Shown: in pieces, positions 8,686 through 14,656 of the stretch
How the letters are laid out: each line of letters starts with the position of its first letter
Numbering within the stretch: the first letter of the stretch is position 1
Source of the DNA: a virus
Strand: one strand, 5' to 3'
Length of the DNA: 39,103 nucleotides
IMG/VR virus record: IMGVR_UViG_3300042371_000328
Coordinates: 1 to 39,103 of that record
Program-made: the position numbers and the translations under genes
The notes under the pieces: generated by a model
What the model saw: only the letters and a program-made list of their open reading frames with translations
Database searches by the model: none
What the model was told of the DNA's origin: nothing

Positions 8686-8726
8686 GATATTTTCCTATGG
8701 ATTTAAGTTTCAAGTATACTTCTCGC

Positions 8727-8744
8727 TAGTCGGTTCCTAATAGA
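8727..8744 (+). promoter_or_regulatory. Promoter-like motif P2 (plus strand)
   Basis: TAGTCGGTTCCTAATAGA, continuing TA. It is in the gap between the divergent ssDNA-binding protein and small terminase genes, and ends 27 bases before the terminase ATG. It is 17/20 identical to P1. An AAGGAG ribosome site follows at 8759-8764. Confidence 0.7.
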
Positions 8745-8771
8745 TATTATAAACAAACAAGGAGAACAGTT

Positions 8772-9167
8772 ATGTCATCAGGTGGTAAAGCCCGTAACAT
8801 TAACTCACTGGCTAACCTGAAGTTAATAACCTCAGAGACAGCTAGAGAGAATCAGAAAAAAGCTACTCAATCAAGAATGTTGAATAAGCAGATCAGAGAA
8901 GAGTTTAAGTTGAATGCTAAGAACTTTCAAGAAGTAATGAAAGACTTACCTCAATTATCTTCACTTGATGTTCTTAGAATGGCTATGCATCAGGCCCTTC
9001 AACAAGATAACTTTGAAGATGCTGCTAGGTATGCTAACATGGTAGCAGAGTATGAACAACCTAAACTACAGAGGATTGATCAGACTACTACAACCCGTAC
9101 AGCAGACCTCTCAGATGAAGAACTTCAGAGGATTATCTCAGAAGAAGGTCTAGATAGTAAGTCTTAA
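8772..9167 (+). CDS. terS: Small terminase subunit (probable)
   Basis: A 131-residue protein that probably recognises phage DNA for packaging. The N-terminus is basic. A helical core (SSLDVLRMAMHQALQQDNFE) is followed by the tail AEYEQPKLQRIDQTTTTRTA and DLSDEELQRIISEEG, an arrangement typical of small terminases, where YExPKLxR precedes an acidic C-terminus that binds the large subunit. It has a good AAGGAG site. Unusually it lies about 3.8 kb from the large terminase, with opposite-strand genes between, as a single-gene unit with its own promoter motif and terminator. No direct DNA-binding motif was checked. Confidence 0.75.
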   Translation: MSSGGKARNINSLANLKLITSETARENQKKATQSRMLNKQIREEFKLNAKNFQEVMKDLPQLSSLDVLRMAMHQALQQDNFEDAARYANMVAEYEQPKLQRIDQTTTTRTADLSDEELQRIISEEGLDSKS

Positions 9168-9219
9168 GAGAATGTCATAAGAGAATGTCTTACAAGTAAG
9201 TCTATAAGAGAATGTCTTT
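9166..9219 (+). repeat. Tandem 13-14-base repeats at the small terminase stop codon
   Basis: AAGAGAATGTC occurs exactly at 9166, 9179 and 9206, each followed by A/T-T. A degenerate unit (ACAAGTAAGTCTAT) fills 9192-9205. The first copy overlaps the terminase stop codon, and the last forms the left arm of the terminator. Confidence 0.85.
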
Positions 9220-9260
9220 AGGTATATTACCTATTGATGTTCTCTTTTTTATTTCTCTTT
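9206..9260 (+). terminator. Intrinsic terminator of the small terminase transcript
   Basis: The left arm starting AAGAGAATGTC pairs with GATGTTCTCTT (11 pairs, two G-U). A two-base internal loop follows, then TAGGTA pairs with TACCTA around a 3-base loop. TTTTTTATTTCTCTTT follows. On the opposite strand no U-run follows, so it should act only on plus-strand transcripts. Confidence 0.88.
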
Positions 9261-9309
9261 AATAATATACTTTTAATAAATATATTAATAACTATCTAAG
9301 GGACAGTAT

Positions 9310-9327
9310 CCTATTAGGTTCCAGCTA
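9310..9327 (-). promoter_or_regulatory. Promoter-like motif P3 (minus strand)
   Basis: On the minus strand this reads TAGCTGGAACCTAATAGG, which matches the consensus TAGTCGGTACCTAATAGA at 14 of 18 positions. It points left, across the small terminase gene in antisense, towards the ssDNA-binding protein gene 625 bases away. It is the weakest of the five by position, because no start codon lies close behind it. Confidence 0.5.
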
Positions 9328-9334
9328 AATAAGT

Positions 9335-10667: not shown

Positions 10668-10887
10668 TTAGCTTAGCTTCTGCTAAGACTTCCTGCCTTG
10701 CCTCCTCTGTTCTGTGCCATTTCTCCTCTTGTTTGAGGAAATCCCTGTGTTTTGTGATCTGATACCATATACCTCTCTCCACTTTTGTCATAGAAGGTAG
10801 TTCTTCCATGACGTCTACTAGTGCGTTAAGCTCTTCGCTTGACATATCTAGGTAATATCTACCATATGCTTGTCTTAAGAATGCCAT
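10660..10887 (-). CDS. Hypothetical helical protein, 75 aa
   Basis: MAFLRQAYGRYYLDMSSEEL and an Arg/Glu-rich C-terminal helix. I start it at the ATG at 10887, which has an AGGA site 7 bases before it and begins just past the stop of the upstream gene. A frame open to 10914 would overlap that gene. No domain was recognised. Confidence 0.6.
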   Translation of the reverse strand: MAFLRQAYGRYYLDMSSEELNALVDVMEELPSMTKVERGIWYQITKHRDFLKQEEKWHRTEEARQEVLAEAKLNP

Positions 10888-10888
10888 T

Positions 10889-11140
10889 TTACTGTCCTTC
10901 CAGTATTTGATCATAGATTGCTGTGTATTCTATGATGATGCCATTGAGTTCTACCTCATTTACCATGTTTTCCAGTACACTTCTGTTGTCTGACACAGCG
11001 TACAGCAGTGTTTCCCCTGTTGTGTCTGGTGACATGACTACTTTACAGCCGAACTCGTGTACTGACTCAACGACTTCTTCTGTTGTACACCCAAAGTCTC
11101 TTGCCTTGAGTGGGTTTAAGAGTAAATAACGTGCTTTCAT
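10889..11140 (-). CDS. Hypothetical protein, 83 aa
   Basis: A mixed alpha/beta protein (MKARYLLLNPLKARDFGCTT), acidic in the second half. No family was recognised. It is separated from the gene upstream by a 9-base gap that holds an AAGGA-type ribosome site. Confidence 0.62.
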   Translation of the reverse strand: MKARYLLLNPLKARDFGCTTEEVVESVHEFGCKVVMSPDTTGETLLYAVSDNRSVLENMVNEVELNGIIIEYTAIYDQILEGQ

Positions 11141-11149
11141 TGTGTTTCC

Positions 11150-11467
11150 TTAAGATTTAACAATATCATAGAACCATACATCGGGATCGTTACCGCCAGC
11201 AGCAACAAAGTGTACTACCAACTCTTTGTCATAAGCCTTTTGGATCTTAGCAAAAAGTTTCTCAGCATATCCTTCAGCAAGACGGTTAAGCTGGCATCTA
11301 CGTTTACGGTTATCACTACAACTGATAATGAAAGTGTTTGAATCTTCATTATATTCAGGGAATGTAATGATTACAGGTACACTAGTACGATCTGGTTGGA
11401 GTGGATTCATTGTACTGAACACAGATGGCTGACCATCTTTAGATTTGAAAGTAAAGCTTTTAGACAT
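11150..11467 (-). CDS. Hypothetical protein, 105 aa
   Basis: A basic, mixed alpha/beta protein (MSKSFTFKSKDGQPSVFSTM). A strand segment SVPVIITFPEYNED is followed by NTFIISCSDNRKRRCQLNRL, so a small nucleic-acid-binding fold is possible. Function unknown. It is the first gene after a terminator-like hairpin at 11493-11515. Confidence 0.65.
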   Translation of the reverse strand: MSKSFTFKSKDGQPSVFSTMNPLQPDRTSVPVIITFPEYNEDSNTFIISCSDNRKRRCQLNRLAEGYAEKLFAKIQKAYDKELVVHFVAAGGNDPDVWFYDIVKS

Positions 11468-11492
11468 GATTAAGTCCTAATGGTTAATGATT

Positions 11493-11515
11493 AAAAACTT
11501 GGTACTTACCCCAAG
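11493..11515 (-). terminator. Small intrinsic terminator (minus strand)
   Basis: On the minus strand, CTTGG-GGTAAGTA-CCAAG is followed by TTTTT. The stem is only 5 bp, so it may be leaky. It lies between the 37-aa gene and the gene at 11150-11467, so it would attenuate the lower part of this gene island. Confidence 0.5.
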
Positions 11516-11548
11516 AGGTCTCTCCGTAAGCCCGAGAAGAGCAGTTAT

Positions 11549-11662
11549 TTACAGATGTACGATGTGAACAGTCACATCTTCTGCTTTGTATTTAAGTAAG
11601 TCTTTAGCAGACATTACTTTGTCGATTAGTTTACTTGTTTTGTTGCAGTATACTAGGTACAT
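11549..11662 (-). CDS. Small basic protein, 37 aa
   Basis: MYLVYCNKTSKLIDKVMSAK, ending in VTVHIVHL. It has a good AAGGAGAAT ribosome site before its ATG, the same type as its upstream neighbours, which is the main support. Function unknown. Confidence 0.55.
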   Translation of the reverse strand: MYLVYCNKTSKLIDKVMSAKDLLKYKAEDVTVHIVHL

Positions 11663-11672
11663 AATATTCTCC

Positions 11673-12047
11673 TTAAGAAATAACAAGATCTTCTTCAGTC
11701 ATTACTTCAGCAATCAAAGCAACAACAGCAGCAGTACGACCTCCACACCAACGACCAGCAACAAGCTCTACAAGTATAGCATGTTGGGTATGCGGTATAC
11801 AACCAGCATGACGACCATCTGGTTCAGCAATAAACCAAAGGAAATTACGAATCTTTTCAGCATACTCATTACGGCTAACTGAGTCTAGGTTACCATCATA
11901 CTTAGACCAATGATGGATATTCCAATAAGTACCACTAGAGTTAGTAGTACGTAGTAATGTATAAGATGACATGCGAAGAAACCACATACCAAGACGGAAT
12001 ACAGTGTTATTAATCGTATTCCAAACACACCAAATATGTTTTTCCAT
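11673..12047 (-). CDS. Hypothetical protein, 124 aa
   Basis: It begins MEKHIWCVWNTINNTVFRLG at the ATG at 12047, which has an AAGGAGAAT ribosome site. A longer frame open to 12197 runs over the neighbouring membrane gene and is not preferred. It is Trp/Tyr/Arg-rich, and an Ala-rich helix lies near the C-terminus (RTAAVVALIAEVMTEEDLVIS). No family was recognised. Confidence 0.65.
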   Translation of the reverse strand: MEKHIWCVWNTINNTVFRLGMWFLRMSSYTLLRTTNSSGTYWNIHHWSKYDGNLDSVSRNEYAEKIRNFLWFIAEPDGRHAGCIPHTQHAILVELVAGRWCGGRTAAVVALIAEVMTEEDLVIS

Positions 12048-12049
12048 GA

Positions 12050-12232
12050 TTATTCTCCTTCGTTGATTTCGATAATAAGAATAGCAAACTGTACCCCTGC
12101 TACTACACTTGCTACGATAAGACCGATGACATGCATCCATCCATACATGGCCTCGTATTGTATTGCATCGACACACCACACCATTAGATGTGACCACAAT
12201 AGTATAAGAACAATGTGCATTAACTTAGTCAT
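12050..12232 (-). CDS. Small two-helix membrane protein, 60 aa
   Basis: Two hydrophobic segments, residues 4-20 (LMHIVLILLWSHLMVWC) and 34-54 (HVIGLIVASVVAGVQFAILII), then an acidic end. An AAGGAGAT site precedes the ATG, which is followed upstream by two hairpins (12259-12295). Early-expressed membrane proteins of this size can be host-takeover or superinfection-exclusion factors, but that is only a guess. Confidence 0.62.
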   Translation of the reverse strand: MTKLMHIVLILLWSHLMVWCVDAIQYEAMYGWMHVIGLIVASVVAGVQFAILIIEINEGE

Positions 12233-12258
12233 ATTAATCTCCTTGAGTTATGACATAC

Positions 12259-12295
12259 AGAGCAAGACGCTCTCCATTGGGTTATTACACCCAAT
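12259..12295 (-). other. Two tandem hairpins before the two-helix membrane protein gene
   Basis: ATTGGGT pairs with ACCCAAT (12276-12295, 7 bp, 6-base loop) and AGAGC pairs with GCTCT (12259-12273, 5 bp, 5-base loop). No U-run follows either, so they look like mRNA-stabilising or processing structures rather than a terminator. Confidence 0.55.
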
Positions 12296-12309
12296 AGACA
12301 GAGACTTCA

Positions 12310-12675
12310 TTAAAACAAATCAGTAGATAAAACGTATAATTCTTCTACTGAGCCGTGGTTAAGTGGCTCACCTTCAGGAACAAAACTACAGCCTCTTTGA
12401 AAGGCAAGTTCTAAGCCTGCTTGTTCAGCATGATCCTTTGATAAGAAGTAACCTTCATGACATGAGTTAGACTTAGGACCATAATCACCATCTACTTCGT
12501 AACTACGAACAAGAATGTACAAAGTCTTAACATTGTACTGTGTTCGAAGAGCAGTCATACCACACTCAAGTGCAGCACGATTCTCTTTTGGTATGCAAGC
12601 AAACATACCAGAACGAAGCGCCTGATGGAGGGAGTGAGCCGCAGAACGGAACAAGTTAAAATTAACAGTAGACAT
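12310..12675 (-). CDS. Hypothetical protein, 121 aa; first gene of the minus-strand island
   Basis: A mixed alpha/beta protein (MSTVNFNLFRSAAHSLHQAL), with a YILVRSYEVDGDYGP strand and an acidic end. No family was recognised. Its ATG is preceded by TAGGGGTTTGTT, so AGGGG acts as ribosome site. Its mRNA leader would run through a stretch with no A over 106 bases (12687-12792). A transcript starting in 12700-13000 would make this the first early gene of the island. Confidence 0.65.
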   Translation of the reverse strand: MSTVNFNLFRSAAHSLHQALRSGMFACIPKENRAALECGMTALRTQYNVKTLYILVRSYEVDGDYGPKSNSCHEGYFLSKDHAEQAGLELAFQRGCSFVPEGEPLNHGSVEELYVLSTDLF

Positions 12676-12686
12676 AACAAACCCCT

Positions 12687-12792
12687 AACAGCGCAACAAA
12701 GAAAGCCAGCAAGCACAGCGCCAAGCACAAGCCGACAAGGAACGAGGACGGGCAACCCACGGAGGAAGCACACCACACAACAAGGGGGGGCG
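12687..12792 (+). other. 106-base stretch without a single T on the plus strand
   Basis: Counting base by base, no T occurs between the T at 12686 and the T at 12793. The stretch is rich in A, C and G, and ends with a run of seven G at 12784-12790. On the minus strand this is an A-free leader of G, C and T. Confidence 0.9.
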
Positions 12793-12973
12793 TACAAAGC
12801 CAGACGGGGGTATACCAAACAACACTGGATTCTTTTAAACGCACACAAAGACATCTACCCCAGACATTCCCCAGCGACACCCTCTATAAAAATAGGGGTA
12901 CCCCAAAGACGTATACAAAAGATTACATTTCTAAAAATTATTGGAATTATTTTTTTAAATAAAATCAACTGGT

Positions 12974-12991
12974 TAGTCGGTACATAATAGA
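12974..12991 (+). promoter_or_regulatory. Promoter-like motif P4 (plus strand)
   Basis: TAGTCGGTACATAATAGA, 17 of 18 consensus bases. It ends 24 bases before the large terminase ATG. It follows an AT-rich block. The end GGTACATAATAGA recalls the SP6 promoter core (GACACTATAGA), a similarity I note without claiming homology. Confidence 0.72.
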
Positions 12992-13015
12992 GAAACATTT
13001 TTATTACATAGGCAT

Positions 13016-14656
13016 ATGACACAACAAAACAATTCTGATAAGCTAGAGGCTCTGAGGGAATTAAAGAAGCGTGAGAAATTAAACGCTTACAAAGGCGACT
13101 TTGAATTATTCGCCAAAGAACAATTAAAAATCTTACCCAAGGACTCCTCTAAGGGATTCCAATCTTTTGAGTTTAATGAAGCTCAAAGGATTGTGAATGA
13201 AGCACTTGAGAAACAACTCAAGGAAACAGGGAGAGTCAGAGCTATTATTTTAAAAGCTCGACAGATGGGTTTAAGTACATACACGACAGGTAGGGTATTC
13301 TGGAAGAGTTACTTTAATGCTTACAACAAGTCAGTAGTTATGGCGCATGATGCGGCTACTAGTGATGCATTATTTGGTATGTCCAGGAATATCATCTATA
13401 ACATGTCTGATACATTCAGACCTATGTTAAAAAAGTCAAATGCAAAAGAGATTATGTTTGAGCATAATGATTCAGGGTACAGGCTGTACACAGCTGGAGC
13501 ACCTGAGGCTGGTAGGGGAACAACTCCTACAATTGCTCACTTATCCGAGGTAGCCTTTTGGGGGCATGATGAAAAGATTTTGGCAGGATTATTCCAAGGG
13601 ATATCCCAGTCTGAAGGGACTGAAGTTATTCTTGAGAGTACTGCTAATGGTGTAGGTAATTCATTTCACAGGTTATGGCAGGGAGCTGTAAAAGGTGAGA
13701 ATGACTATATTGCTATCTTTGTTCCATGGTACCTGATGACAGAGTACCAGAGGAAAGTTCCTGAAGGATTTGAGAGAACAACAGAAGAAGAAGTATTAGT
13801 TACTCGATACAACTTGAGTGACGATCAACTATACTGGAGAAGGTTAAAGATTGCAGAGGGTGGTGAGAATAAGTTCCGTCAAGAATACCCTGCGACACCT
13901 GAAGAAGCATTTATTGTTTCTGGCTCTAATGTATTTAACATTGAAAAGCTAAGTAAACTTATACCTCAACCAATATTAGCCAAGAGAGAGTTTAATTTTG
14001 AATCCTCTATGATGGAGGATTTAAGAGATGGGTCTATCGAGATATTTAAGTATCCTACTTTTGAAGATGCCTTTGCTATCGGTGCTGACGTTGCTCTGGG
14101 TGTTGGCAAGGATTATTCTACAGCAGTGGTCATTAATGCCCAGAGGGAAGTGTGCGCAGTTTATCGCAGTAATACGATTGATCCTAGTCAGTTTGGTGAT
14201 CTACTATTTTATCTAGGTAGGTACTACAACAATGCTTTGTTAGCCGTAGAGTCTAATTCTATGGGTATAGCAACATTAAACAGGTTAACTCAAATGGGTT
14301 ACATGAATATGTACTATCAGACTAAGATGGCGAATGTATCCAAAGAAGAAGGTAGTAGAATTGGCTGGAGAACAACGTCTGCCTCTAAACCAGCTATCAT
14401 TGGATTCTTAAAGAATGCTATTGAACAAGAAGATATATGGATACCTTCTAGGGTTATTATTGGTGAATTAATGAACTATGTAGCAGATGAGTCTGGAAAG
14501 ACAAATGCTATTATAGGTCAAAATGATGATACAGTTATTGCCCTTGCTATTGCTCTTGAGGTTATCAGGACACACGGGGATAGATTAACAAATACAACAG
14601 TACCCTTCTCACAACGTATGGGTAATTTTCAACAAATAGAAACAACTTGGATTTAA
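13016..14656 (+). CDS. terL: Terminase large subunit
   Basis: The 546-residue DNA packaging motor ATPase and nuclease. The Walker A is the variant K80-ARQMGLST-88 typical of phage terminases. Walker B is IAHLSEVAFW (173-182), with E178 as the catalytic carboxylate. The C-terminal RNase H-like nuclease shows AIGADVALG (D358), LAVESNSMGIATLNRL and the DD pair in GQNDDTVIALAIA. Length is normal. Expression probably starts at P4; the ribosome site is weak (TAGGC). The first plus-strand late gene of the main block, it is far from its small subunit. Confidence 0.95.
   Translation: MTQQNNSDKLEALRELKKREKLNAYKGDFELFAKEQLKILPKDSSKGFQSFEFNEAQRIVNEALEKQLKETGRVRAIILKARQMGLSTYTTGRVFWKSYFNAYNKSVVMAHDAATSDALFGMSRNIIYNMSDTFRPMLKKSNAKEIMFEHNDSGYRLYTAGAPEAGRGTTPTIAHLSEVAFWGHDEKILAGLFQGISQSEGTEVILESTANGVGNSFHRLWQGAVKGENDYIAIFVPWYLMTEYQRKVPEGFERTTEEEVLVTRYNLSDDQLYWRRLKIAEGGENKFRQEYPATPEEAFIVSGSNVFNIEKLSKLIPQPILAKREFNFESSMMEDLRDGSIEIFKYPTFEDAFAIGADVALGVGKDYSTAVVINAQREVCAVYRSNTIDPSQFGDLLFYLGRYYNNALLAVESNSMGIATLNRLTQMGYMNMYYQTKMANVSKEEGSRIGWRTTSASKPAIIGFLKNAIEQEDIWIPSRVIIGELMNYVADESGKTNAIIGQNDDTVIALAIALEVIRTHGDRLTNTTVPFSQRMGNFQQIETTWI

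Follow-up and report, generated by a model that had tools for sequence, protein, structure and literature searches.

A strand purged of one base at the divergent early/late control region of marine T7-like podoviruses

Phage T7 provides the closest described counterparts to the locus analysed here. Its anti-restriction protein comes from the first ORF and is made during entry, it escapes EcoP15I in that its 36 sites all face one way, and the Type I sites displayed in the review that covers these cases all have both A and T on one strand (PMC12707154). The T7 primary origin places a phage-type promoter beside an AT-rich block. Diversity-generating retroelements change A on a coding strand to any base, and the dU-DNA roseophages (Naomiviridae) are marine phages with a T-specific biology. 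In mitochondria, origins of the CSB II or D-loop type bring together a G-run, a T7-like RNA polymerase and a displaced strand.

The window, by which we mean the whole stretch of DNA that was analysed, is a virus record of 39,103 nt (39.1 kb; IMGVR_UViG_3300042371_000328) from a marine T7-like podovirus group. A 340-nt gap (12676-13015) separates the early genes, which run leftward, from the late genes, which run rightward. Its elements, from left to right, are a T-free tract, a pair of G-runs, the core motif, the C-run array, a palindrome, the AT-rich block and a promoter-like element; next comes the terminase large subunit gene, TerL (Table 1). When the sequence was re-examined, every element that a first-pass annotation had named was found in its place. 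The annotation had also called this the only large non-coding gap, and it is the largest gene-free gap in the window: of the stretches with no ORF on the expected strand, only 8686-9334 is longer, and it carries a + strand ORF at 8772-9167. This lone ORF, of 131 aa, lies within the leftward early block, and the near-complete relative G001 has a lone gene in a similar place, on the opposite strand. An Rfam search gave no match, and a comparison of the gap DNA with phage records gave similarity at chance level only.

Table 1. Features in and around the gap of the window.
Feature	Position	Strand	Remarks
Structured intergenic element	12259..12295	-	two hairpins, TTGGGTGTAATAACCCAA and GAGAGCGTCTTGCTCT; frequent sharp boundary of an A-depleted zone in relatives
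First gene, leftward early operon	12310..12675	-	121 aa; no family match
A-depleted leader of the leftward early operon, core motif to first start codon	12676..12825	-	same zone T-poor in nearly all relatives
T-free tract	12687..12792	+	106 nt without T, equal to no A on the leftward early sense strand
First G-run (G7)	12784..12790	+	G5-G7 at about -42 from the core motif in nearly every relative
Second G-run (G5)	12806..12810	+	about 21 nt past the first G-run; G3-G6 in most relatives
Core motif TGGATTCTTTTAAACGCACACAAAGA	12826..12851	+	one per contig; T-poor zone begins at its left edge
C-run array	12855..12882	+	imperfect direct repeats; in relatives variable, missing or expanded to a tandem array
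GGGGTACCCC palindrome	12895..12904		conserved only in part of the family
AT-rich block	about 12911..12966		missing in a whole subgroup
Promoter-like element TAGTCGGTACATAATAGAGAAAC	12974..12996	+	before TerL; kept before TerL in relatives
Terminase large subunit gene (TerL)	13016..14656	+	ATG at 13016

The gap is very probably a divergent control region between the leftward early and rightward late (TerL) operons of a T7-like phage. The window fragment stops short of the replication genes, and the T7-like set was read from G001 and from the closest isolate, Roseobacter phage CRP-7, both of which have divergent early and late blocks, a single-subunit RNA polymerase, PolA, a primase-helicase and a 5'-3' exonuclease. 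As in T7, the early genes lie at one side of the TerL junction. GC skew within the window flips sign near the gap, and the gene strand switches at the same place. The earlier placing of a control region where the strands switch, with a putative phage-type promoter ahead of TerL, is supported. TAGTCGGTACATAATAGAGAAAC is presumed to be the late promoter of the phage's single-subunit RNA polymerase; it has one exact match in the window, other window matches being near chance level, and promoter-like sites similar to it occur elsewhere in the genomes of relatives.

The main finding is the T-free tract, which the first-pass annotation gave as one item in a list. The next longest T-free run in the window measures 28 nt, and the longest run in 60 third-order Markov simulations of the window reached at most 34 nt (mean 28); under independence, the expected number of runs such as the one observed is about 1e-12. 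Base-free runs of at least 80 nt were absent from seven comparison phages, T7 included. In T7 the longest such run is 40 nt, whereas here a whole base is gone from one strand, coding sequence included. A chance origin of the tract is excluded by simulation together with the conservation described below. On the - strand, the leader as counted over 12676-12826 has 5 A in 151 nt. The tract had been described as GC-rich, a term that fits poorly, as base composition over T-poor zones is about 41% A, 29% C and 27% G. No description of such a tract turned up in the non-subscription literature searched, and we found no precedent for a base-free strand at the start of early genes.

Relatives were collected by a TerL search, which yielded 80, and by a search with the core motif alone, which yielded 67 viral contigs. 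In about 85 relatives the same layout recurs: a T-poor tract, two G-runs about 21 nt apart, the core motif, a putative phage promoter and TerL. The core motif has the family form TGATTCTTT-N-ACACACARAGA and, in its proper setting, is accompanied by a G-run near -42 in every contig and by a left flank that is T-poor in nearly all of them (0-11% T in the last 100 nt). Chance matches to the motif in two contigs (L138 and L139) have neither the G-run nor the T-poor flank, and 17 bacterial or archaeal genome contigs that match it were rejected as chance hits, having no G-run and no T-poor flank. The most conserved columns are the G-runs, the spacing and the core motif. Across the family the sequence of the T-free tract is not itself conserved; what is conserved is the absence of T on the + strand. 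Poor conservation in close relatives had been proposed as grounds for discarding a role for the gap, and the gap proved to be strongly conserved. These loci are mutually related and their counts are not independent; the strength of the effect and its recurrence in lineages as distant as CRP-7 are not tied to exact numbers. Other families with base-free runs may exist.

Parts of the gap vary among the relatives. A subgroup (L049, L054-L057, L061, L064, L067 and L075) has neither the C-run array nor the AT-rich block, and its motif lies less than 60 nt from the promoter. One subgroup, represented by L100, L109, L045 and L051, has as its C-run array, right of the core, a variable tandem repeat with a unit of about 14-15 nt (CACTCTCTATTAAAA). 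L077 (1604-2216) is the sole relative that has motif and G-run yet no T depletion, with ordinary T in leader and first gene, and its host or gene content could reveal what imposes the purge.

CRP-7 (TerL, 61% over 96%; portal, 51% over 94%), the only isolate near the family, carries the same feature. At its divergent junction, near the record end, a run of 224 nt on the early sense strand has no A, and A stays close to zero between about 57,384 and 58,050, in the same strand relation as in the window family. The first true early gene lies at 57,608 on the + strand and encodes 128 aa (MSSSFSFALPSV...). The deposited gp72 (MK613349, 57271-57966, minus; L169:27371-28066) probably represents a spurious ORF that covers the A-free zone: strands without A and strands without T both lack stop codons in all frames, so false calls of this kind are expected, and gene callers confronted with stop-free strands choose false genes. 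CRP-7 and Rhodobacteraceae FZCC0042 form a cultured pair with the feature, in which its cause is directly testable.

From the core motif, the T-poor zone extends 0.1-1.1 kb leftward and in many relatives runs through one to three early genes. In 55 non-redundant loci, T on the + strand makes up 0.8% of the 50 nt immediately left of the G-run and climbs to 32% by 1.2 kb; the stretch from G-run to motif is likewise T-poor, and the opposite side of the core is not purged. The longest T-poor zone, in L023, spans 688 nt with at most 3 T, followed by 549-575 nt in L005, L019 and L074, and wholly T-free runs in relatives reach 269 nt. The non-coding leader is purged almost everywhere and the first genes in many lineages, with about half of the lineages having an A-free leader and a gene that is not A-free. 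In several lineages the gene adjoining the leader is unpurged, and the window is among them, its first gene having 15% A on the sense strand in the first 60 nt and 22-30% thereafter. In purged genes A is nearly absent from the sense strand, GTG or TTG often serves as the start codon, and the proteins are made up mostly of A, V, L, S, G, R, F, P, C and W. Within one protein family, members lying up to about 550 nt from the G-run have 1.7-8% T, and those beyond 790 nt have 25-30% T. At four-fold sites, sense-strand A falls to 0.1% (23 sequences), compared with 36% in a normal paralogue and 30% in TerL, and where no other A is nearby it is found at 0 of 804 such sites. The purge thus hits proteins, start codons and synonymous sites alike, which makes it a natural experiment in nucleic-acid versus protein selection. 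In many loci the zone ends sharply at a structured intergenic element, whose distance ranges from 67 to 1,105 nt; in some, the second module, beyond the element, is A-poor too. Our reading is that a pressure peaking at the motif acts on modules shuffled in and out. The early genes of the window (10700-12300) and of relatives are separated by recurring elements, either GAGAGCG-CTTGCTCT hairpins or a CTCGGG...GAGACC type, which are perhaps processing sites or recombination junctions for module exchange.

A purge of this shape could come from mutation pressure, in which targeted hypermutation or a diversity-generating element would turn + strand T into any base, most strongly beside the core. Genes that differ in position do differ in T, the gradient decays with distance, and the A-specific coding-strand change of diversity-generating retroelements leads to a similar end state. 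Between T-poor and T-richer forms of a hydrophobic peptide gene, T is kept at about 11% of homologous positions compared with 65-77% for A, C and G, and all three replacements of the lost T occur (C, A and G, roughly 45:35:20). Unlike such retroelements, however, the locus has no template repeat and no raised divergence, and reverse transcriptase (PF00078) was absent from 20 genomes or fragments in a search with a positive control. The T-poor tracts of close relatives diverge by 5-9%, no more than their flanks, and their differences within 500 nt comprise 129 A<->G as against 11 C<->T, with many A<->C as well. At four-fold sites, the composition-normalised rates of G<->T and C<->T equal those of TerL, with no excess passing through the forbidden base, and the purged genes are under purifying selection (pN/pS 0.08-0.50), as real proteins are. 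Because divergence is ordinary and T is not gained, selection fits better than hypermutation, which we rejected for want of excess divergence, of reverse transcriptase and of a passage-through-A signature. Mutation pressure of any such kind seems very improbable, and selection against one base is the better reading of these sequences.

The purge is also independent of neighbouring bases, so that motif-based causes fail and single-base causes remain. Several motif-based agents were rejected individually. Avoidance of the T7-type primase site GTC does not fit, as GTC is the commonest context of the remaining T's and is over-represented; avoidance of TpA/ApT, of a -10 element or of an AT-binding silencer does not fit, as third-position A is purged equally beside C and G; and avoidance of UV dimers does not fit, as T before C is the most retained T. 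An apparent preference for GAC over GAT came from non-independent sites and was set aside.

It is about evenly balanced whether the forbidding of one base on one strand, through coding sequence and at the price of recoded proteins, serves as a sequence-independent shield against adenine-methylation restriction or A-directed attack on transcripts. Zone, strand, start, conservation, context-independent purging and selection over hypermutation follow from the comparisons above; as to mechanism, we tentatively favour escape from adenine-methylation restriction, with restriction as the presumptive selecting agent. The T-free tract itself is very probably the leader-side end of a zone where selection takes A out of the early sense strand and T out of its partner, most strictly beside the core motif and fading over up to about 1 kb. 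This zone would be the first phage DNA to enter the cell and to be expressed, if the order of entry is as we infer, and early transcription would start at the core. A duplex without A on one strand cannot hold a site that has to be adenine-methylated on both strands, which takes in every Type I site and every palindromic N6-adenine Type II site irrespective of sequence, and asymmetric Type III sites can lie in one orientation only, so that the leading DNA might be unreadable to adenine-based restriction until the phage's first products had been made. In the window, the absence of T from one strand means that no site needing A on both strands can lie within those 106 nt. T7 supplies precedents for both aspects, in an anti-restriction gene that comes first during entry and an escape from EcoP15I by site orientation (PMC12707154).

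That restriction acts on these phages follows from their avoidance of certain palindromes. Among the five genomes counted (the window, G001, G003, G010 and G011), GGCC, CGCG and CCGG stand at 0.02-0.65 of expectation in four (CCGG at 0.17-0.52), and A/T-containing palindromes are near normal. The depletion is strongest for GGCC and CGCG in G001 and for CGCG in G010 and the window, and G011 is normal, an unevenness that suggests differing exposure to restriction among genomes. Several observations count against the restriction reading. T7 itself has no base purge, and one restriction system can be evaded by losing a few sites, so that total removal of T would need very diverse systems. The unpurged genes adjoining the leader in several lineages, and L077 with its ordinary composition, also speak against it, as does the lack of likeness between the first-gene proteins and known anti-restriction proteins. 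DNA mimics of the Ocr type need acidic residues, which A-free codons cannot encode.

A cause at the level of RNA is a close rival, in itself possible if somewhat unlikely. Here the early transcript, or at least its 5' part, would have to lack A since something attacks or starves transcripts at A, whether the A-directed endoribonucleases of abortive-infection systems, an adenosine-type chain terminator or a shortage of ATP, and the first unit would be the message still made and translated when others are not. Such a cause would suit a zone whose starting point, at the motif's left edge, could also be that of a leftward transcript, which in many loci ends at a structured element whatever the distance, and whose depleted base is, in the window family as in CRP-7, the A of the early sense strand; it would also suit purging that ignores context. 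It sits less well with the lineages in which the leader alone is A-free, which show that an A-free message is not required, or with the A-poor second module of some loci; moreover, the core has no clear sigma-70 promoter, and the leader RNA is no more stable than shuffled sequences (mean z 0.24). Another reading, which we consider unlikely, places the cause in replication or at a DNA end, where the + strand would be kept single-stranded, as a resected 3' end or an origin, and where T or misincorporated U would be harmful. A gradient that starts from one point would be in keeping with resection or unwinding, the strand concerned also carries the conserved G-runs, and the T7-like set comprises a family A polymerase alongside its exonuclease, primase-helicase and RNA polymerase. 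A dCMP deaminase is encoded (seen in G001), and dUTPase, ThyX, ThyA and UDG were not found in the near-complete relatives G001-G012. The deaminase is the sole hint from the nucleotide pool, and a dU-DNA explanation fits poorly. Unlike the dU-DNA roseophages, which belong to a different phage family, these genomes have ordinary T outside the zone. The first-pass annotation had argued for a candidate origin in the style of T7 from the AT-rich block, which in the window does lie directly beside the phage-type promoter (12911-12996). That argument is not supported, given the subgroup described above, which lacks block and array and keeps everything else, promoter and tract included; the block is dispensable, and the conserved parts are T-poor tract, G-runs and core motif. 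The likeness to a mitochondrial CSB II origin extends to a G-run beside the control region, a T7-like RNA polymerase, a PolA-type polymerase and a gp4-type helicase, but strand composition differs. Against any of these versions stand the unpurged other side of the core and the retention of T in GTC, the T7 primase site. Contig ends in relatives, moreover, are scattered in position and do not cluster at one point, which weighs also against a packaging (cos or pac) site, a quite improbable reading in which motif, G-runs and composition would guide the terminase. The locus does adjoin TerL at the early/late boundary, the position of the genome junction in T7-like phages, and the motif occurs once per contig; a packaging signal is compatible with escape from restriction, but does not explain why a single base is missing from as much as 1.1 kb of coding DNA. 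If the purge is adaptive, it is a new form of defence escape or a control signal in which a letter, and not a set of motifs, has been removed from one strand.

The first genes belong to a family of small early proteins of about 95-150 aa that are present in several copies per genome (L040:1278-1601 and L012:4762-5043, among others), with A-free copies adjoining the control region. A normal paralogue from L040 has an OB-like fold, predicted with good confidence (mean pLDDT 84). Structure matches of the family are spread over many unrelated OB proteins, the best with Z below 8, and for that reason no function is assigned to it. Two observations concern other isolates and other parts of their genomes. 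In CRP-7, ribonucleotide reductase is annotated in two pieces round another ORF among the late genes (gp44-gp46, L169:5652-8270), possibly as the result of an insertion that interrupts it. Pelagibacter phage HTVC121P has a T-free, A/C-rich run of 70 nt after a G/T-rich segment at its late/early junction (L175:42520-42590), in a region shared by its relatives. This run is much shorter than that of the window family and has the opposite polarity, and it may represent strand-asymmetric composition of a weaker or a different sort.
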